Source: Crossaster papposus (taxonomy: Eukaryota; Echinodermata; Asteroidea; Velatida; Solasteridae). Taken from it: 64,000 nucleotides of DNA. Position 1 is the first letter of the stretch, and every line of letters starts with the position of its first letter. The notes beneath the pieces were generated by a model. That model had not been told where the DNA came from. It was given only the letters and a program-made list of their open reading frames with translations, and did not search any database. The stretch is taken from NCBI GenBank assembly GCA_037893245.1, contig JBAIAA010000875.1, forward strand, positions 372,001 to 436,000, given 5' to 3'. Made by a program: the position numbers and the translations under genes. Below are positions 8,651 through 55,636 of this stretch, piece by piece.

Positions 8651-9020
8651 TTAAAGGTAGGATACACCATTGGTAATTGCTTGAATTATCATAAATGGGT
8701 AGATTTGGGGGGTTGTATTTTATAGTAAATATCGTTTAACTGACCTGTCCGAAGTTTTACAAACATGAATGCCGAGAAAGGCACGAAAAACAGTGTTTGT
8801 TTTTAAGCAGTTATTCTTATTTTATTTGTGTTTTTTCGCGATCGCCGTCCAGCGATCGCGAATTTGAAATTATATTTTTCAGAATAATAACAGGATATCT
8901 AGCGCAATCATTTTGCTGGATGACTAGAATCATTATTTACTTTCAGATGAGTAAGATATTTCTTAATAATTCAGTAGTAAATATTTTCGATATCTGCAAA
9001 ATGATGTATCCTACCTTTAA
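8651..9020 (+). mobile_element. Family B TTAA-flanked MITE, copy 2 (best preserved)
   Basis: 370 bp including TTAA at both ends (8651-8654 and 9017-9020). The left end reads AGGTAGGATACACCATTGG and the right end reads GATGTATCCTACCT. The body matches copy 1 and, inverted, copy 3. It lies directly against a fragment of another repeat. No transposase is encoded. Confidence 0.87.
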
Positions 9021-10323
9021 GATTACATTTCCGGGTAGTTCTGCGTTTTCTTGTCATTTGTCTTCGAGACTCGATTTTTGAGGGAAAAAAATGGTTGTCA
9101 ATGCTGGAGTTCAGAGTGGCAGAGACTATCGAACAGAAACCATGAGCCTTTGAAGGAGAACAATTTAATCATCTGGTTGTTGGTGACACTAGGCGGATCG
9201 AAGCGTCTTACTGCTCGTAGCGGCATGCTTACGCTTACGCGAGTCGTGAGAACAAGATAATTGCACTTTCTTGACCAAATAATGTTATTATTCAAACAAT
9301 TCCACGATACAACTTAGATTTTGTACAAACATAAGTGAATAATCGCATTACATCTCCTTTCTTATTAAAATTTCGAAATCATTCATGGGAAATCCTGACT
9401 TCATCACGGCATGGAAAGCTGAATGTAAAGCTGAACCACGACAATACCCAGTTTGTAGCATTTTGTACTCTATGTGTAATTTAATGTACTGGTTCTTACT
9501 TCATTCATTGTTGTAAATTGCAAATTTGCAGTTACTATGGCAACCTTAGCTAAATTTCAGCAGCGTATTGGATTAGTTTTGTACCCTGTTTTTTTACAGG
9601 AATAGCTAGAATAATCAAACGGGACAGTAACGTAAACCGACAGTATTCGAAAGTCGTTAAAACAGTTCGTCCAGGTAATATTTTTACCAATTTTTCTTAA
9701 AAACAGGATAGTATTGGCGTCCAAAATGCCAGGAATTTGCCGTAAAAATCACGATTTTGTTTTTACAGTGAACAGCACGAGACTTTATACTGTACACTTG
9801 TTCGTTTGTGTACATGCTGCACATCCAGTTGTAGGTCATTAATTTTTTGAAACAGCTTTTGTTTTCATTGCCTTGATTTTCACTTCTTTACTCAGAAAAG
9901 TTTTTGTGTCACCGCACCTTCCAATTTGTCTACCGATCAATATGCAGAAAAGGTCACCCGGACCTCTACAGCAACCGGTACACGAACAGCCCCCTAGCTG
10001 AGTCCTGCAATATCTCACGAAATGGCGATAACTGATGTTTGTGATGACTATAGTATAAACACTCTATTACCAAAGACAACCGTTAAAAAAAGTTCATTGC
10101 GATGGCCAATATAAACTCCAGGAACCTCTTATCTGACGACGATGTAGATTGTATGTCATCTATAGGTTAGGCATACACCAGACGTATACAAGATACTGTC
10201 TGAAAACCTCTCTATGCTTATTAACAAGCACATGGGCCTTACGCGGACTCGCGAAATACACTCCCTAAAATCTGCATCTGATGTATCGGTATTGTAAAGA
10301 AAAGAATGGAATAAAGGTGCACC
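9021..10323. other. Unassigned 1.3-kb stretch
   Basis: No gene, tandem array or clear inverted repeat was found. Open frames are short and overlapping. Local composition is ordinary for the window. Confidence 0.4.
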
Positions 10324-10680
10324 TAAAGGTAGGATACACCATTTGCAAATATCGGAAAAATTTACTACCGAATTATTAGGAAATATCTTACTCATCTGAA
10401 AGTAAATAATGATTCTAGACATCCAGCAAAATGATTGCGCTAGATATCCTGTAATTATTCTTTTAAAAAAAATTCAGCCAAAAAACACAAATAACATAAG
10501 AATAACTGCTCGACGCCGCGGCGGTTGAAAACAAACGCTGTTTTTCGTGCTTTTCTCGGCATTCATGATTGTAAAACTTCGGACAGGTCAGTTAAACGAT
10601 ATTTACTATGAAATACAACCCCCCAAATCTACCTATTCATGATAATTCAAGCAATTACCAATGGTGTATCCTACCTTTAA
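10324..10680 (-). mobile_element. Family B MITE, copy 3 (reversed)
   Basis: About 357 bp in the opposite orientation to copies 1 and 2. It starts AAAGGTAGGATACACCATTTG and ends GGTGTATCCTACCTTTAA with TTAA at 10677-10680. The left TTAA has decayed to CTAA. Body words CGGACAGGTCAG and CGTGCTTTTCTCGG confirm the family. Confidence 0.85.
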
Positions 10681-10944
10681 ATGAAAAATGGTCAGATTTT
10701 TCATCCGGTAAACTATCGGCAATTTACTTCTCAAATCAAAATGTTGAAATGTATATTGTAAGACTGACGAAATGTGTATTCGAAACGGAGATATCGCTAT
10801 TATAGAGATATCTCTATTCCCAGTTTAACACATTATTAGAAACAGAGATAATCTCCATTATTATTGTGAAGTATGTACGCCATATTCATTCAATCATTGA
10901 ATTGTGGTTCCATAAATAAATCGGTCTTCGTGCCATTCTTATAT

Positions 10945-11480
10945 ACATAAGAATGACCATGACACGACCTGTCGCCATTGACCCCTTAAAAGAATGACCA
11001 TGACACGACCTGTCGCCATTGCCCCCTTAAAACAATGACTATGACACGACCTGTCGCCACGGTCCCCATAAAAGAATGACCATGACACGACCTGTCGTCA
11101 TTGTCCCCTTAAAAGAATGACCATGACACGACCTGTCGCCACGTTCCCCTTAAAAGAATGGCCATGTCACGACCTGTCGCCATTGACCCCTTAAAAGAAT
11201 GACCATGACAAGACCTGTCGCCATTGTCCCCTTAAAATAATGACTATGACACGACCTATCGCCACGGTCCCCATAAAAGAATGACCATGACACGACCTGT
11301 CGCCATTGTACCCCTAAAAGAATGACTATGACACGACCTGTCGCAACAGTCCCCTTAAAAGAATGACCATGACACGACCTGTCGCCATTGACGCCTTAAA
11401 AGAATGACCACGAGACGACCTGTCGCCATTGACCCCTTAAAAGAATGACCATGACACGACCCGTCGCCATTGCCCCCTTT
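10945..11480. repeat. 41-bp minisatellite, about 13 units
   Basis: The word GAATGACCATGACACGACC recurs at 10951, 10992, 11033, 11074, 11115, 11156 and onward, always 41 bases apart, to about 11443. Each unit continues TGTCGCCATTGACCCCTTAA. Units differ at a few positions, for example CCATTG against CCACGG. There is no unique spacer, so this is a tandem repeat and not a CRISPR array. It is not a coding repeat, because 41 is not a multiple of three. Confidence 0.96.
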
Positions 11481-12227
11481 TACTAAAATGCCGAGCTCGT
11501 TTGTTGTTTCGAAGGAACAGAATGACAACTTCCACAAAGCTTTCCTGTGCATCTAACCTTTATTATTATCAATTTGGCATCGAACAAATTCATCTTCATC
11601 CCGTTCCCTTGTGGGAAGACGTCGCCACTGGGTTAATTCCTACTTTCAAGCTCCTTATATTTATCTGATGGACTTCACTCAAAATAAAGTCCCTCGTTTC
11701 CCTCCCCCGTGGAAAGGATCTTCCCTTCCATGATCATCGGATGAGACGGGGGTTACAGACGGCAAGTGCTCCTTCTACGTGTTGTCATGCAAAAGGTTAA
11801 AGGAGACGAAACACTCTGGTAGCCATTTCTTCTTCTTCCCTTTTCTTCATTTTCATTAAGCAAACTAGACTCTTATAAAATAAACCTGAATACAAGGCTG
11901 CGCTGTTTGCAAGGCACTGCCCCGTGAGACTACAACCCGCGTGACTCGTCAGGAGCACAGCCTTGACTAGTCTGTAACTTTCAGGTTTTATGTTGTTTTG
12001 CTTTTAAGTTTGTTTTGCGAATCTGAGGCGAAAAGGAGGTAATTCCCATGCACGTCTATAAATTGCTCTGTTTTGTCTGAAGGAACCAGAATACAAAAAC
12101 AGTATTACATTTCTTGGTTTCCAGCGTCTATGAACACAACATTTTGAGATGAGGTCAGCGTCACAATATTTATAATATATAATTCATATGTATAAATATA
12201 GGCTCCTAACCCATCAATTTTAAAAAT
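11481..12227. other. Unassigned stretch after the minisatellite
   Basis: About 750 bases of apparently unique sequence. No gene is recognised. Confidence 0.35.
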
Positions 12228-16255: not shown

Positions 16256-16437
16256 CTTTTGACGCAGGGTTGACGCAGGGTTGAAGCAGGGTTGACGCAG
16301 GGTTGACGCAGGGTTGACGCAGGGTTTACGCAGGGTTGACGCAGGGTTGACGCAGGGTTGACGCAGGGTTGACGCAGGGTTGACGCAGGGTTGACGCAGG
16401 GTTGACGCAGGGTTGACGCAGGGTTGACGCAGGGTCA
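16256..16437. repeat. 11-bp minisatellite, about 16 units
   Basis: The unit TTGACGCAGGG is repeated about 16 times with only two or three single-base variants (AAGCAGGG, TTTACGCAGGG). Because 11 is not a multiple of three, the unit cycles through all frames. An open minus-strand frame reading CVNPASTLRQP over and over is therefore an artefact with a 33-base period. Near-identity of units implies recent expansion. Confidence 0.97.
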
Positions 16438-17121: not shown

Positions 17122-17376
17122 TTAAAGGGATTGTATACGGTAATTGGAACCCACTGTTTGTTTCAATCCTATATAGTTATAGGCCTATACCATAAAACTA
17201 ACCTGTAAAAATTGTTGGGGATAAAATGTGATATATTTTCCCATAACCGCAGTACTTCGAAGTGAACAGTTTCTAAACATGCATTATACTATCCAAAGCT
17301 GCTGTACTTCTTACCAAGTAAGTCTTTATTGCCATACATTTTTTGAGTAATTACCAAACGTATACGATCCCTTTAA
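17122..17376 (-). mobile_element. Family A TTAA-flanked MITE, copy 2 (internally deleted, reversed)
   Basis: 255 bp with TTAA at both ends (17122-17125 and 17373-17376). Ends are AAAGGGATTGTATACGG and CGTATACGATCCCT. Compared with copy 1, read in reverse, about 150 bases in the middle are missing, from after the ATCCCCAACAATT region to the TTTTTACAGG region. The TIRs are intact, as expected for an internal-deletion derivative. Confidence 0.85.
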
Positions 17377-26910: not shown

Positions 26911-27746
26911 TAAGCCGTGTTCCCATTTGACTTTTTCTTCCGCGGACTCGCGGTAACTTACCGCGACATTCCTTCGTGTAATTCTACCGTGCGTTCCCAC
27001 TTGGACTTTGTATACCGCGACGTAACGTACATTATCAGTGCAAGATTGGCAGAATGTCACACATTATGGGTCACTTTTGACCTTAAGACAGAGGTTTTCT
27101 CGTAAGTCCGACGCCTCATAGGCCTGATTCCTCATAGGTTCGATTCCTCATAGGTTCGATTCCTCATAGGTTCGATTCCTCATAGGTCCGACAAAGTCTC
27201 ACCCACAAGGATAAAGGATCTTCAGTCCGACGCCTCATAGGTCCGACGACCTATAGGTCCGACAATCTATAGGTCAGACAATCTATAGGTCCGACGCCTC
27301 ATAAGTCCGATGCCTCATAAGTCCGCCAATAAGATTGGCTTTTTTGACCGACGTCGGACTTATGACGGGTCGAAGCTATGAGGTTGAATACTATAAATCC
27401 GGTGTCCCATAAATCCGACGCCTCATAATTCCACAATTTCGGACTTCTTATGAGGCGTCGGACGTATGAAGCATCGAACTTATACGATACGGCCTCGAGA
27501 TAAAGCAGTTTACGCGTTGTCGTGGTACTTCTACAGGGCGAGACTGTTCCCATTGGACGTTTCAGCGTCCCTGACAACTTACCGCGGCCAAGCGGAAACT
27601 AGCCGCGACCTTAATTCAGCCTTTTAGTTTTACATCATCGCCGCGGTACGTTGACAAGGACGTAAAAGTCTACCGCGCGTTCCCATTATATTTAATGTTG
27701 TCATTCTACAGAAATAAATAAAAGTCCAATGTGAACACAGCTTTTA
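26911..27746. mobile_element. 836-bp foldback element, GTGTTCCCATTTGAC ends
   Basis: The left end AAGCCGTGTTCCCATTTGAC and the right end GTCCAATGTGAACACAGCTT are approximate inverses over about 25 bases. Shortened versions of the end word recur inside (GCGTTCCCACTTGGAC near 26990, TGTTCCCATTGGACG near 27549, GCGTTCCCATTATA near 27676), along with many TACCGCG words. The middle (27105-27480) is an array of CCTCATAGGTCCGACG variants that switches orientation near 27340, so the two halves can pair. No transposase is encoded. Confidence 0.6.
27105..27480. repeat. CTCATAGGTCCGACG word array inside the foldback element
   Basis: Variants of a 15-16-base word follow one another. CATAGGTTCGATTCCT is repeated exactly at 16-bp spacing, with GGTTCGATTCC at 27137, 27153 and 27169. 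From about 27346 on, the inverse word GTCGGACTTATGA predominates. The change of strand in mid-array is what makes the region self-complementary. Confidence 0.85.
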
Positions 27747-27917: not shown

Positions 27918-29069
27918 TAATGGCCCTGTCACACCAGAACGTTTTAGGCCAACGCGTGAGTAGCGCGTTAAACATAGTTTATACGCTGGCAAACGCTAAA
28001 CTTCCACAGAAAAAGTCAAGTGGAACCGTGATTTCCGCGTGTCCATAACGCGTTGATAACGGGTTCATTTGCGTTCACCAGCGCGTGAATAACTCGTTAG
28101 TAACGCGCTCGACGACTGATGAACGACTGCCCAGCGCGTGAGTAGCGCGGTCCAACGCGCGCCAGCGTACGGCAACGACCACATGATTAGTTGTACAAAA
28201 ATATGACGCGCTACTACAGTAATGGCCCTGTCACACCAGAACGTTTTAGGCCAACGTGTTGGAATTTCGGCAACACGCGGGTAAACGTTGACCAACGCTA
28301 GGCCAGCGTTCGCAACGCGCTGAGCGCGTTACCCACACGCTGAAACACGCTGAGGCAAAAATACATTTTTCAACATACCTAAAACATTTCAGCGTTTGCC
28401 AGCGTGTGACTGCACACGCTGGCGGCGCGCAGGAAGGCCGTTACTCACGCGTCGAACGCGCTAGACGATCGTTACCAACCCACTACTCACACGCTGGGGA
28501 CCCGCTGTCGTATTTTTACTATAAATCAGTGATGCGTTCCTTACACGCTGAGCGCGTTCCTCACACGCTACTCACGCGCTGGCATACGCTATGAACCCGT
28601 TATCAACCTGTATGGACACGCTAAAATCACGGTTCCATTTGACTTTTTCTGTGAAAGTTCAGCAATTGCCAGCGTATCAACTATTTTTAAAGCGCTACTC
28701 ATGCATTGGCCTAAAACGTTCTGGTGTGGCAGGGTCATAACCAGCGTGTCGCAAGCGTACGCCAGCGTACGCCAGCGTGTGAGTGGCGGGTTGATAACGA
28801 TCGTCTAGCGTGTTCGACGCGTGAGTAACAAACCTCCAACGCGCCGCCAGCGTGTGCAGTCACACGCTGGCAAAGGCTGGAAATTGTAGGTATGTTGAAC
28901 AAAATATTTTTTCCTCAGCGTGTGACAGCGTGTCCCAGCGTGTGAGTAACGCGCTCAGCGTGTTGCTAACGCTGGCCTAGCGTTGGTCAGCGTTTGCCAG
29001 CGTGTTGCCAAAATTACAACACGCTACTCACGCGTTGGCCTGAAATGTTCTGGTGCGACAGGGCCATTA
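27918..29069. mobile_element. Interlocked double foldback element (arm order a, b, a', b')
   Basis: Four copies of the terminal sequence ATGGCCCTGTCACACCAGAA (or close variants) occur: at 27920 and 28222 pointing inward, and inverted with ends at 28738 and 29067. Three of the four junctions have TA next to the end (27918-27919, 28220-28221, 29068-29069); the fourth has AA. Arm a (27920-28206) pairs with a' (about 28507-28738): both carry CACAGAAAAAGTCA and GGAACCGTGATTT. Arm b (28222-28505) pairs with b' (28741-29067): both carry the hairpin CCAGCGTGTG/CACACGCTGG and CAACATACCTA. The order a b a' b' is interlocked, not nested. The interior is almost entirely made of CAGCGTGTGAGTAGCGCG-like words. 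No protein is encoded. Confidence 0.8.
28399..28422. repeat. Perfect 10-bp stem, 4-base loop in arm b
   Basis: CCAGCGTGTG and CACACGCTGG enclose ACTG. The partner arm b' has the same stem at 28847-28870 enclosing CAGT. Each arm can thus form its own cruciform besides pairing with the other. Confidence 0.9.
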
Positions 29070-36580: not shown

Positions 36581-36846
36581 GGTTAATTGCATGGCCGGAA
36601 AAACCTATACCGTGTCCACCCAAATCATCTGCAGCGCCAAACCTATAAAGCCGCGAGCTGTTATTGAAATTGAAGAAGAAATCAACGGAATAGGGGGAGG
36701 GGAGAGGGAGGGAAGGGGGAGGGGAGACAATAATAGGCATACAAAACATACAAATTCAATAGTCTGGCATTAGCCCACACAAACATTTGTTGCCTTTGGA
36801 GCTTGTGGAGCCATAGTCCCTCAGTTTCTAAGGCGTGATCTGTATT

Positions 36847-38416
36847 GATAGAAGGGCCTTGCTGAATTAGTTCCAAGCTTCATTGTGGCAAGGGGATCGT
36901 TTCATTGTCCTTGTGTTGGGCTTTCTTGATTTAATTAAAACGGAGGACAGCGTCAAGGAATGTTTGTTTCTCTTTGGAGTACTAGACTCACATTCATCAA
37001 TGCACGGTACAGCTATAACCACAAATACATCTATAACCAATTCTTTGAGCAAAAATGCACATAAGAGGTAATGTGTATTGATAGAAGGGCCTTGTGGATT
37101 AGTTCCAAGCTTCATTGTGGGCAACGTCAAGGAATGTTTGTTTCTCTTTGGAGTACTAGACTCACATTCATCAATGCACGGTACAGCTATAACCACAAAT
37201 ACATTCATAATAGTCAAACATCTAACCATCTCATTGAACAAAATTGCACATAAAAGGTGATGTGTATTGATAGAAGGGCCTTGTGAATTAGTTCCAAGCT
37301 TCATTGTGGCAAGGGGATTTATTCAATTTCCTTTTGTTGGGTTTTCTTGATTTAATTAAAACGGAGGACAACGTCAAGGAATGTTTGTTTCTCTTTGGAG
37401 TACAAGACTCATATTCATCAATGCACGGTGCAGCTATAACCACAAATACATCTATAACCAATTCATTGAACAAAATTGCACATAAGAGGTAATGTGTATT
37501 GATAGAAGGGCCTTGTGAATTAGTTCCAAGCTTCATTGTGGGCAACGTCAAGGAATGTTTGTTTCTCTTTGGAGTACTACTAGACTCACATTCATCAATG
37601 CACGGTACAGCTATAACCACAAATATATAATAGTCACACATCTATAACCAACACATTGAACAAAATTGCACATAAGAGGTAATGTGTTTTGATAGAAGGG
37701 CCTTGTGAATTAGTTCCAAGCTTCATTGTGGCAAGGGGATTTATTCAATTTCCTTTTGTTGAGTTTTCTTGATTTAATTAAAACAGAGGACAAAGTCAAG
37801 GAATGTTTGTTTCTCTTTGGAGTACAAGACTCACATTCATCAATGCACGGTACAGCTATAACCACAAATATATTCATAATAGTCAAACATCTATAACCAT
37901 CACATTGAACAAAATTGCACATAAGAGGTAATGTGTATTGATAGAAGGGCCTTGTGAATTAGTTCGAAGCTTCATTGTGGCAACGGGGTTGTTTGATTTT
38001 TCTTCTGTGGGTTTTCTTGATTTAATTAAAACAAAGGACAGCGTCAAGAAATGTTTTTTTCTCTTTGGAGTACTAGACGCACATTCATCAATGCACGGTA
38101 CAGCTATAACCACAAATATATTCATAATAATAGTCAAACATCTATAACCATCTCATTGAACAAAATTGCAAATACAAGGTGATGTGTATTGATAGAAGGG
38201 CCTTGTGAATTAGTTCCAAGCTTCATTGTGGCAAGGGGATTTATTCAATTTCCTTTTGTTGGGTTTTCTTGAGGACAACGTCAAGGAATGTTTGTTTCTT
38301 TTTGGAGTTCTAAACTCACATTCATCAATGCACGGTACAGCTATAACCACAAATATATTCATAATGGTCAAACATCTATAACCATCTCATTGAACAACAT
38401 TGCACATAAAAGGTAA
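36847..38416. repeat. 170-250-bp unit array, first block
   Basis: GATAGAAGGGCC marks unit starts at 36847, 37080, 37269, 37501, 37691, 37940 and 38191. Unit lengths are about 233, 189, 232, 190, 249 and 251. Short units lack a segment of roughly 60 bases around TTCCTTTTGTTGGGTTTTC. Each unit contains CAAGGAATGTTTGTTTCTC and ATCAATGCACGGTACAGC. The repeated minus-strand peptides (such as VPCIDECESSTPKRNKHSLT) simply reflect the repeat. Confidence 0.95.
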
Positions 38417-39065
38417 TGTTTACACAGGTAATGACTGAATGTACAATAAATAAGTCTCAGTAAACAGAGAGACATAAGATAGGGTCTTTATTGGACAATT
38501 TCAGTTTAACAAATTGCATTTAAAGAAAAAGTAGTTTTGCAACTATCCACAAAGTATTCATTACTAAATTATTGTTCAAAAGCTTACTTGATGTAAATAT
38601 ATTCAGAGTTGTATTCGAGTCCCTTCAAGTTCTTTCACAAGTCTCAAGTCCAGTCATAAAGCCAGTCGTAAGTAACTGGTTGAACAATGACAAAGGAATG
38701 CTTTTGTCAAAGCTCATTTGAATAGCTTGCGATTTGAATTGGAACTGGACGACTTGTGATGGACTTGCAGGGACTTACAGGGACTTACATGGACTTGTGA
38801 TGGACTTGTGACTACACCCCTGAATATATTGTGACTGAAATTATTCCTTCTGGCATGATTTAATTCTGATGAAAATAATAAAAGAAGTCTCAGGAACGCA
38901 TTGTTATAAATTTCAATTAGAATTTTATTTTACATTTTGATAGCTTTTGCTGCTTCAAACGATAAAAGTGCAAAACTGACAAATAGTATTATATGACTTT
39001 GAATACAAAATAGTTATTTTTTCCAAGCAATGGTTGTCAAATATTGCAAAAAAATGTAAGATATT
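38417..39065. repeat. Tail of duplicated block, copy 1
   Basis: AATGTTTACACAGGTAATGAC to CAAATATTGCAAA (first word shown in part: TTTACACAGGTAATGAC). It contains a local run of GGACTTG/GGGACTTAC words near 38750-38812. It includes TATTCGAGTCCC, also found after the 11-bp minisatellite, and TTTTGCTGCTTCAAACGATAA, also found near 53797. Confidence 0.8.
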
Positions 39066-42000
39066 GGTTAATTGCATGGCCGGAAAAACCTATACCGTGT
39101 CCACCCAAATCATCTGCAGCGCCAAACCTATAAAGCCGCGAGCTGTCTTGAAATTGAAGAAGAAATCAACGGAATAGGGGGAGGGGAAGGGCAGGGGAGG
39201 GGAGACAATGAATAGGCATACAAAACATACAAATGCAATAGTCTGGCATTAACCCACACAAACATTTGTTGCCTTTGGAGCTTGTGGAGCCATAGTCCCT
39301 CAGTTTCCAAGGCGTGATCTATATTGATAGAAGGGCCTTGCTGAATTAGTTCCAAGCTTCATTGTGGCAAGGGGATCGTTTCATTGTCCTTGTGTTGGGC
39401 TTTCTTGATTTAATTAAAACGGAGGACAGCGTCAAGGAATGTTTGTTTCTCTTTGGAGTACTAGACTCACATTCATCAATGCACGGTACAGCTATAACCA
39501 CAAATATATTTATAATAGTCAAACATCTATAACCAACACATTGAACAAAATTGCACATACAAGGTGATGTGTATTGATAGAAGGGCCTTGTGAATTAGTT
39601 CCAAGCTTCATTGTGGCAAGGGGGTCGTTTGATTTTTCTTCTGTGGGTTTTCTTGATTTAATTAAAACAAAGGACAGCGTCAAGGAATGTTTGTTTCTCT
39701 TTGGAGTACTAGACGCACATTCATCAATGCACGGTACAGCTATAACCACAAATATATTCATAATAGTCAAACATCTATAACCAACTCATTGAACAAAATT
39801 GCAAATACAAGGTGATGTGTATTGATAGAAGGGCCTTGTGAATTAGTTCCAAGCTTCATTGTGGACAACGTCAAGGAATGTTTGTTTCTCTTTGGAGTAC
39901 AAGACTCATATTCATCAATGCACGGTGCAGCTATAACCACAAATACATTTATAACCAATTCATTGAACAAAATTGCACATAAGAGGTAATGTGTATTGAT
40001 AGAAGGGCCTTGTGAATTAGTTCCAAGCTTCATTGTGGCAAGGGGATTTATTCAATTTCCTTTTGTTGGGTTTTCTTGAGGACAACGTCAAGGAATGTTT
40101 GTTTCCCTTTGGAGTTCTAGACTCACATTCATCAATGCACGGTACAGCTATAACCACAAATATATTCATAATAGTCAAACATCTATAACCAACTCATTGA
40201 ACAACATTGCACATAAAAGGTAATGTGTATTGATAGAAGGGCCTTGTGAATTAGTTCCAAGCTTCATTGTGGGCAACGTCAAGGGATGTTTGTTTCTCTT
40301 TGGAGTACAAGACTCACATTCATCAATGCACGGTACAGCTACCACAAATATATTCATAATAGTCAAACATCTATAACCAACACATTGAACAAAATTGCAC
40401 ATACAAGGTGATGTGTATTGATAGAGGGACTCGTGAATTAGTTCCAAGCTTCATTGTGGCAAGGGGGTCGTTTGATTTTTCTTCTGTGGGTTTTCTTGAT
40501 TTAATTAAAAATTGAGGACAGCGTCAAGGAATGTTTGTTTCTCTTTGGAGTACAAGACTCACATTCATCAACGCACGGTACAGCTATAACCACAAATATA
40601 TTCATAATAGTCAAACATCTATAACCAACACATTGAACAAAATTGCACATACAAGGTGATGTGTATTGATAGAAGGGCCTTGTGAATTAGTTCCAAGCTT
40701 CATTGTGGCAAGGGGATTTATTCAATTTCCTTTTGTTGGGTTTTCTTGAGGACAACGTCAAGGAATGTTTGTTTCCCTTTGGAGTTCTAGACTCACATTC
40801 ATCAATGCACGGTACAGCTATAACCACAAATATATTCATAATAGTCAAACATCTATAACCAACTCATTGAACAACATTGCACATAAAAGGTAATGTGTAT
40901 TGATAGAAGGGCCTTGTGAATTAGTTCCAAGCTTCATTGTGGGCAACGTCAAGGGATGTTTGTTTCTCTTTGGAGTACAAGACTCACATTCATCAATGCA
41001 CGGTACAGCTACCACAAATATATTCATAATAGTCAAACATCTATAACCAACACATTGAACAAAATTGCACATACAAGGTGATGTGTATTGATAGAGGGAC
41101 TCGTGAATTAGTTCCAAGCTTCATTGTGGCAAGGGGGTCGTTTGATTTTTCTTCTGTGGGTTTTCTTGATTTAATTAAAAATTGAGGACAGCGTCAAGGA
41201 ATGTTTGTTTCTCTTTGGAGTACAAGACTCACATTCATCAACGCACGGTACAGCTATAACCACAAATATATTCATAATAGTCAAACATCTATAACCAACA
41301 CATTGAACAAAATTGCACATACAAGGTGATGTGTATTGATAGAAGGGCCTTGTGAATTAGTTCCAAGCTTCATTGTGGCAAGGGGATTTATTCAATTTCC
41401 TTTTGTTGGGTTTTCTTGAGGACAATATATATTCATAATAGTCAAACATCTATAACCAACTTATTGAACGACATTGCACATAAAAGGTAATGTTTACACA
41501 GATAATGACTGAATGTACAACAAATAAGTCTCAGTAAACAGAGAGACATTAGATGAGGGGTCTTTATTGGACAATATCAGTTTAACAAATTGCATTTAAA
41601 GAAAAAGTACTTTTTGAAACTATCCACAAAGTAACCAATATTAAATTATTGTTCAAAAGCTTACTTTATGTAAATATATTCAGAGTTGTATTCGAGTCCC
41701 TGCAAGTTCTTTCACAAATTCAGTCTCAAGTCCAGTCATAAAGCCAGTCGTAAGTAACTGGTTGAACAATGACAAAGGAATGCTTTTGTCAAAGCTCATT
41801 TGAATAGCTTGTGATTTGAAGTGGAACTGGAGGACTTGTGATGGACTTGCAGGGACTTACGGGGACTTGTGGTGGACTTGTGACTACATCCCTGAATATA
41901 TTATGACTGAAACTATTCCCTCTGGCATGATTTAATTCTGATGAAAATAATAAAAGAAGTCTCAGGAACGCATTGTTATAAATTTCAATTAGAATTTTAT

Positions 42001-42125
42001 TTTACATTTTGATAGCTTTTGCTGCTTCAAACGATAACAGTTTAAAACTGACAAATGATATTCTATGACTTTAAATACAAAATAATTATTTTTTGCCAAG
42101 CAATGGTTGTCAAATATTGCAAACA
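39066..42125. repeat. Large tandem duplication, copy 2 (about 3.1 kb)
   Basis: Starts again at GGTTAATTGCATGGCCGG (39066), followed by the same lead, a longer unit array (39326-41487) and the same tail (41488-42123). The extra length relative to copy 1 comes from array expansion. Confidence 0.93.
39998..41425. repeat. 670-bp higher-order repeat within the second array
   Basis: Unit starts at 39998, 40232 and 40420 are repeated at 40668, 40902 and 41090, each exactly 670 bases later, and a third partial copy starts at 41338. The copies appear identical where I compared them, including private variants such as GATAGAGGGACTCG and TTTCCCTTTGGAGTTC. This is either very recent expansion or an assembly duplication. 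Confidence 0.93.
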
Positions 42126-54999: not shown

Positions 55000-55636
55000 A
55001 TGATTCACGAGTTTATGGGCTTTATTTTTTTGGAATTTGCGAATAGAAATGAAAGCGATGGCTTAACATTAATTACAAATTAATACCAGTCTTCTCTGAT
55101 GAATAATTCAAATTGTTGTGATTAAAAATACCATAACAGGGATCGTATATCCGTTTGGTAATTACTCCAATGGCAGCTTTGGATCGTATAATGCATTTTT
55201 AGAAACATTTCACATCAAAGTACTGCGGTTATAGAAAAAGATATCACTTTTTATCCCGAACAATTTGAATCTGAGAAGCGTTACTGCAGTGACGTTTCTC
55301 ATATTGTGTATTACAATGCAGATTATTCTTCCTGCGTGGACATAACCGCTCCAGATTTTCGGCCATATCTCAAAATCGCTACCACCTTTTGAAATGAAAT
55401 TTTTACAGGTTAGTTTTATGGTATATATCTATAACTATATAGGATTGAAACAAACAGTAGGTTCCAATTACCAAACGTTTACGATCCCTTTAATGATTTA
55501 TGCCATAACAAAAATATTAAAAGGCAGTCTAGAATGCAAAAATAGTCTGGCACCATCATATTCAACAGGCCACAATTTATCAAATACATCCAGGAAACAC
55601 GACCAAAATGGCTTCCTCGCGAATAAGGTTCACTGA
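55000..55636 (-). mobile_element. Family C MITE split by a family A insertion
   Basis: Read on the minus strand from 55636, GTGAACCTTATTCGCGAGG, GATGGTGCCAGACTATTTTTG (in part: GGTGCCAGACTATTTTTG), then after a gap GGTATTAATTTGTAATTAATG and ACTCGTGAATCATGC follow the order of the uninterrupted copy at 18590-18841. The gap is exactly the family A element at 55138-55493. GTTATGG occurs on both sides of it. Confidence 0.75.
55138..55493 (+). mobile_element. Family A MITE, copy 3 (nested in family C)
   Basis: 356 bp, starting GGGATCGTATATCCGTTTGG and ending AACGTTTACGATCCCTTTAA. The left TTAA is absent (ACAGGG), while the right TTAA is at 55490-55493. The body agrees with copy 1 (GAATCTGAGAAGCGTTACTGC; in part AATCTGAGAAGCGTTACTGC). 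The short segment TTACTTGGTAAGAAGTACAG of copy 1 is missing. Confidence 0.85.

Follow-up and report, generated by a model that had tools for sequence, protein, structure and literature searches.

Layout of the locus

The 64,000-nucleotide stretch of Crossaster papposus DNA analysed here (the window; contig JBAIAA010000875.1, positions 372,001 to 436,000) carries at 27921-29066 a repeated unit of 1,146 bp, made up of two pairs of inverted arms, a with a' and b with b', and flanked by TAA on the left and TTA on the right (Table 1). Both observations of an earlier note on this DNA are borne out: one terminal motif is present four times, and the arms interlock in the order a, b, a', b'. A scan for the motif allowing up to three mismatches gave four matches, facing inward at 27922 and 28224 and inverted at 28717-28736 and 29046-29065, and 100 shuffles gave none. 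On alignment, arm a (27920-28125) matches a' (28535-28738) in inverted orientation with 83% identity, and arm b (28220-28512) matches b' (28758-29069) likewise over 258 of 289 aligned bases (89%); the pairs cross and are not nested. The note was also right that pairing of a with a' and of b with b' would be mutually exclusive, which holds by geometry. No stop-to-stop frame of at least 110 amino acids lies within the unit.

A search of the host assembly (1.02 Gb in 1,841 contigs) with the unit, a check that the earlier note had proposed, scored 40 of 2,079 first-look candidates, among them the place in the window. The unit was full length at all 40, and the other 39 are 91-97% identical to the one in the window. 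The left and right compound junctions, where a meets b and a' meets b', occur 1,625 and 1,550 times respectively in the assembly with up to three mismatches, and controls gave 0 for each. Because the full unit and both junctions recur in the assembly, an assembly error is ruled out as the source of the crossed order.

Table 1. Parts of the compound unit, with the evidence for each
Feature	Position in window	Strand	Evidence
Left flanking TAA, target-site copy	27918..27920	+	TNA on both sides in 50/54 distinct insertions; empty sites
Left half (a) of outer element D, beginning with terminal repeat TGGCCCTGTCACACCAGAACG	27921..28219	+	Motif scan, arm alignment, D-C alignment
TAA on the left of the inner insertion, target-site copy	28220..28222	+	Sequence; compound junction found 1,625 times
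Inner element C, b followed by a': a copy of D in inverted orientation, complete with both terminal repeats	28223..28737	-	End-to-end alignment, 452/519
TAA on the right of the inner insertion, target-site copy	28738..28740	+	Sequence; compound junction found 1,550 times
Right half (b') of D, closing with the inverted terminal repeat	28741..29066	+	Motif scan, arm and D-C alignments
Right flanking TTA, target-site copy, middle base unlike that of the left TAA	29067..29069	+	Flank comparison
Element D: terminal repeats TGGCCCTGTCACACCAGAAC..., about 0.52-0.63 kb, non-coding			
Family terminal-repeat string TGGCCCTGTCACACC			

A probable insertion of an element into its own copy

The compound is very probably a miniature inverted-repeat transposable element (MITE) that entered another copy of itself in inverted orientation and then spread as a unit by means of a PIF/Harbinger-type transposase. 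When 27918-28219 and 28741-29069 were joined by script to give the outer element, D, and this was compared with the reverse complement of the segment between them (28220-28741), the two were collinear end to end, with 452 of 519 aligned bases identical (87%) in the window copy. The same comparison of consensus sequences gave 463 of 520 aligned bases (89%) and a score of 702, against 143 with the halves swapped, 179 with the insert unreversed and -15 +/- 14 for 100 shuffles. In the window the inner element, C, starts TGGCCC and ends GGGTCA (GGGCCA in the consensus); both its ends are exact, and the same TAA stands on either side. It is this end-to-end collinearity, together with the presence of both terminal repeats and the TAA on each side, that argues for self-insertion.

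As we reconstruct the events, D would have taken in a second copy of the same family, inverted, at an internal TAA to give a [b a'] b'. The outer ends of the compound would have remained usable. That it moved as one 1.15-kb unit and inserted at TNA with a 3-bp duplication at roughly 1,500 sites is shown by the distinct flanks and the empty sites. The enzyme would most likely be a PIF/Harbinger-type transposase supplied in trans. The interlocked order follows directly from such an insertion and therefore no further event is required. The earlier note had held that plain insertion cannot yield this order, had called for an extra event such as arm swapping, transposition using mixed ends or a replicative rearrangement, and had taken a/a' and b/b' to be two foldback elements; none of this holds, the real elements being a with b' and its inverted copy, b with a'. 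Its interpretation thus stands for the layout and the exclusive pairings and fails in its central inference on origin.

Self-insertion has also happened again within the family. At L033 one compound lies in inverted orientation inside a second one; it occupies the TTA that separates b' from a' there and is flanked by TTA left and right. Two compounds at L055, and a truncated copy and a compound at L041, abut with a single TNA in common. A TNA beside the terminal repeat is evidently a usable target.

Spread and age of the compound

Moving as a single unit, the compound has reached roughly 1,500 sites, and the nested form appears to be the abundant form of the family, with one inverted self-insertion dominant. 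The terminal motif itself has 3,020 exact occurrences in the assembly. Painting of 90 loci (L001 and L009-L097, some being one place taken twice) gave 67 plain compounds and 23 compounds with extra pieces, truncations or deletion derivatives; removal of shared flanks left 54 distinct insertions from 72 rows. In a young group chosen by us (18 copies at least 98.5% identical to the consensus, one per flank) the pairwise difference is 0-2.9%, with a mean of 1.75%, and in the other 16 rows it is 1.7-6.5%. The window copy, 95.7% identical to the consensus, is an older one.

Five of the painted loci fit deletion between directly repeated terminal motifs. L091-L093 have the form b a' b', with the far end of b' reached by L093 only, and L062 and L074 have a b a' with a b'-like end. 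The first three are 99.8% alike, flanks included, and so represent one event; judged by eye, the five share a single TCA in seemingly the same host repeat. In one further compound (L080:816-1333) another element or pair of elements, with ends like GGGGCCAATTTCATAGAGCTGCT and AGCAGCGCCGTGAAATTGGGCCC, are inserted within the b terminal repeat.

Target site and element class

TNA is found on both sides of 50 of the 54 insertions and of none of the 54 at shifted positions. Comparison with empty sites, as the earlier note had suggested, gave paralogous sites with one TNA; L025, for example, is flanked by TAA on both sides and both of its paralogous empty sites read TAA. Insertion duplicates 3 bp at TNA, which is also the pattern of PIF/Harbinger and its relatives (PMC4482050); the TNA targets and the duplication seen at empty sites point to PIF/Harbinger transposition. 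The unit is short, has terminal inverted repeats and is present in many dispersed copies, as is typical of MITEs. Its target duplication places it with the PIF/Harbinger (Tourist-like) group, yet 20 of 50 insertions have unlike middle bases at their two ends. The genome has many copies of DDE_Tnp_4, the domain of the transposase expected to mobilise such elements: a search for it scored 150 matches of 1,818 candidates, all those listed being over the cut-off and many in open frames.

A foreign middle base at one end

The middle base agrees between the ends in 30 of the 50 insertions, which is above chance (a level reached by 0 of 20,000 permutations). The discordant pairs, left/right, are TAA/TTA (13), TTA/TAA (3), TAA/TCA (2) and TGA/TTA (2). 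Flanks do not match in 24 insertions, in 20 of which the middle base alone differs, and discordance is already present in 6 of the 18 copies whose identity to the consensus is 98.5% or more. A first search for empty sites covered 6 insertions and gave a match across the junction for 4, and a second covered 18 of the 20 discordant insertions and gave one for 6; the sites used are paralogous rather than allelic, and some differences may belong to the paralogue. In all seven discordant sites that could be read, one end carries the target base and the other a foreign base. The target is TTA and the left end TAA at L028, L026 and L071; the target is TAA and the right end TTA at L052, L049 and L037; and at L073 the target is TAA and the right end TCA. 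The foreign base is the commonest base at that end among the 50 insertions (A on the left, T on the right) in six of the seven, and the bases adjoining the trinucleotide match the empty site in six of the seven. Caution is needed for L071, where three of four paralogues read TTA and one CTA, and for L073, whose paralogue also differs in bases on the left. An eighth site, L009/L051, is ambiguous and could not be scored, its paralogues reading AAA, and L012 has CAA on the left and TAA on the right with paralogues reading TAA and GAA.

We tentatively suggest that PIF/Harbinger-type elements can bring a base from the donor site into the new site, the departing overhang sometimes being sealed in. 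The excised element would retain a 3-nt TNA 5' overhang from its donor, the T and A of the overhang could pair with the target TNA gap while the middle base is mismatched, and repair would then fix the donor base at one end of the new insertion. If this is so, the duplications would be non-identical and each insertion would record its donor in part. With insertions of this kind, in which the target base stands at one end and a foreign base at the opposite end, nature provides a data set on which the fate of the overhang in PIF/Harbinger integration can be tested. In a study of rice mPing, a cut staggered across the 3-bp duplication to leave a 5' overhang is proposed and several bases are tolerated at the middle position (PMC4561436). 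There, artificial TAA/TTA combinations were repaired better at the donor site than TTA/TAA (PMC4561436), and in the Crossaster family TAA/TTA likewise outnumbers TTA/TAA.

Alternative explanations

Several observations weigh against self-insertion followed by spread as a PIF/Harbinger-type unit. The predicted uninterrupted junction of D (26 nt, up to three mismatches) occurs 0 times in the assembly, so the pre-insertion element is inferred and not seen; no solo D was seen among the painted loci and a 523-nt query of the contiguous form likewise yielded none, its search scoring 40 places of which 30 were painted, with the inner copy beside the a arm in 30 of 30. Two solo candidates were rejected: L095, in which a 1-279 is joined to b' 132-326, gives no proof either way because its deletion covers the insertion site, and L094 is an 84-bp fragment of a. 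D and C also differ by about 100 bp of indels, mostly central, and the junction counts may be inflated by allelic or duplicated contigs, L015/L016 and L031/L032 having common flanks. No autonomous partner was found, both transposase loci examined (C349 and C412) being rejected as such, and the partner is inferred because neither carries the family's terminal repeat. Finally, middle-base discordance in 20 of 50 insertions is unusual for a plain 3-bp duplication. That two foldback elements, a-a' and b-b', became interlocked through arm swapping, the use of ends from different elements or a replication-based rearrangement is nevertheless highly improbable. The arms do pair in this way and derivatives of the forms b a' b' and a b a' with a b'-like end exist, but these are 5 of the 90 painted loci, they all share one TCA of apparently the same host repeat, three of them are a single event, and deletion between directly repeated terminal motifs would yield them; moreover arm swapping does not predict that the centres of a + b' and b + a' are collinear, and a TAA of its own flanks the inner pair on either side. 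Neighbouring inverted copies could also have given rise to the compound through ectopic recombination or template switching, and substrates exist, since abutting or inverted neighbours occur in the family (L033, L041, L055), but the exact ends of the inner copy and the same TAA on each side are the signature of transposition and make this origin very unlikely.

For the discordant flanking bases alone, the main rival to carry-over from the donor is gene conversion after insertion; a change of the middle base at one end by conversion or later mutation seems to us possible, if rather doubtful. The many family members could exchange sequence, and with paralogous empty sites some of the differences may be the paralogue's own, as with the left neighbours of L073 and the CTA of L071. 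Against this, discordance is already found in a third of the young group, the change is confined to the middle base in most non-matching insertions and the adjoining bases equal the empty site at all but one of the readable sites.

Comparison with known elements

The unit resembles the foldback (FB/TU-like) elements in its long self-complementary arms, but these stem from a nested copy. A foldback element has long inverted repeats as its own two ends, whereas those of D, a and b', are about 300 nt long and match over only 53 nt (92% identity) or 82 nt (84%), so the unit does not belong to that group. The apparently paradoxical layout reduces to one ordinary transposition, which cautions against naming new foldback architectures by arm order alone. 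The family is also a clear example of MITE self-insertion in which the nested form has come to be the abundant one.

In being non-coding, with short terminal inverted repeats, a TWA/TNA 3-bp duplication and a high copy number, the family is like PIF/Harbinger (Tourist-like) MITEs such as rice mPing. It differs from mPing in being a nested double element, and its middle-base mismatch is natural (20 of 50), whereas the non-matching duplications in the mPing study were built artificially (PMC4561436). Self-insertion is proposed for longer elements of the PIF/Harbinger superfamily in PMC10288884. The NuwaII group of the PHIS superfamily, found in amphioxus among others, is described as targeting TNA, with a preference for C|TNA|G, and as having terminal repeats most of which begin GG (PMC4482050). 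The TNA target is shared (PMC4482050), but the terminal repeat here begins TGG and the flanking bases are only weakly C/G-biased (position -4: C 19, G 15, T 15, A 5; position +4: G 20, C 18, A 10, T 6; n=54). Set against the nested MITE multimers known from rice, the family appears to be dominated by one particular self-insertion, in inverted orientation, and its simple form was not found.

The earlier note had known of no described family with this layout. Nested MITEs are already known as a kind, and the points of interest are the spread as a whole unit and the base carry-over; as far as the literature was searched the family is new, though not as a kind, and its origin is ordinary. Among the papers listed on MITE self-insertion, nesting, multimers and mismatched duplications, no title or abstract opening described this layout, Repbase and most subscription papers lying outside the scope. 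A literature string search for GGCCCTGTCACAC matched three papers with titles on mouse lung cells or embryo genes.

Folding and other features of the window

The single-strand DNA fold predicted for the unit has the inside of b paired with b' and is closed by the outermost repeats, that of a pairing with that of b'; its predicted energy, -412.5 kcal/mol, comes without a shuffle control at such a length. Nothing in the analysis shows a function for the predicted fold. The window gave 0 matches in Rfam at gathering scores, and a Pfam search of ten window frames gave 0 families.

The window also contains dispersed repeats in both orientations. One, of up to about 285 bp, lies at 1337-1646, 17139-17327 and 55173-55472 (88-95% alike), and another at 133-448, 8651-9000 and 10323-10680 (88-96% alike). 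Two copies of the latter type contain an open frame that is similar by eye (184-525 and 8740-9081), that at 8740-9081 having no Pfam match. At 36841-41584 lies a complex tandem array of higher order, in which units of about 188, 234-248 and 408-436 bp are interleaved, and pieces adjoining it are also repeated at 38535-39022 and 41612-42094. Simpler arrays are found at 10867-11563 (a 41-bp unit, about 13 copies, 87% alike), at 16259-16435 (TTGACGCAGGG x 16, 97%) and, about 600 bp to the left of the compound, at 27099-27325 (a 16-bp unit of the CCTCATAGGTTCGA type).
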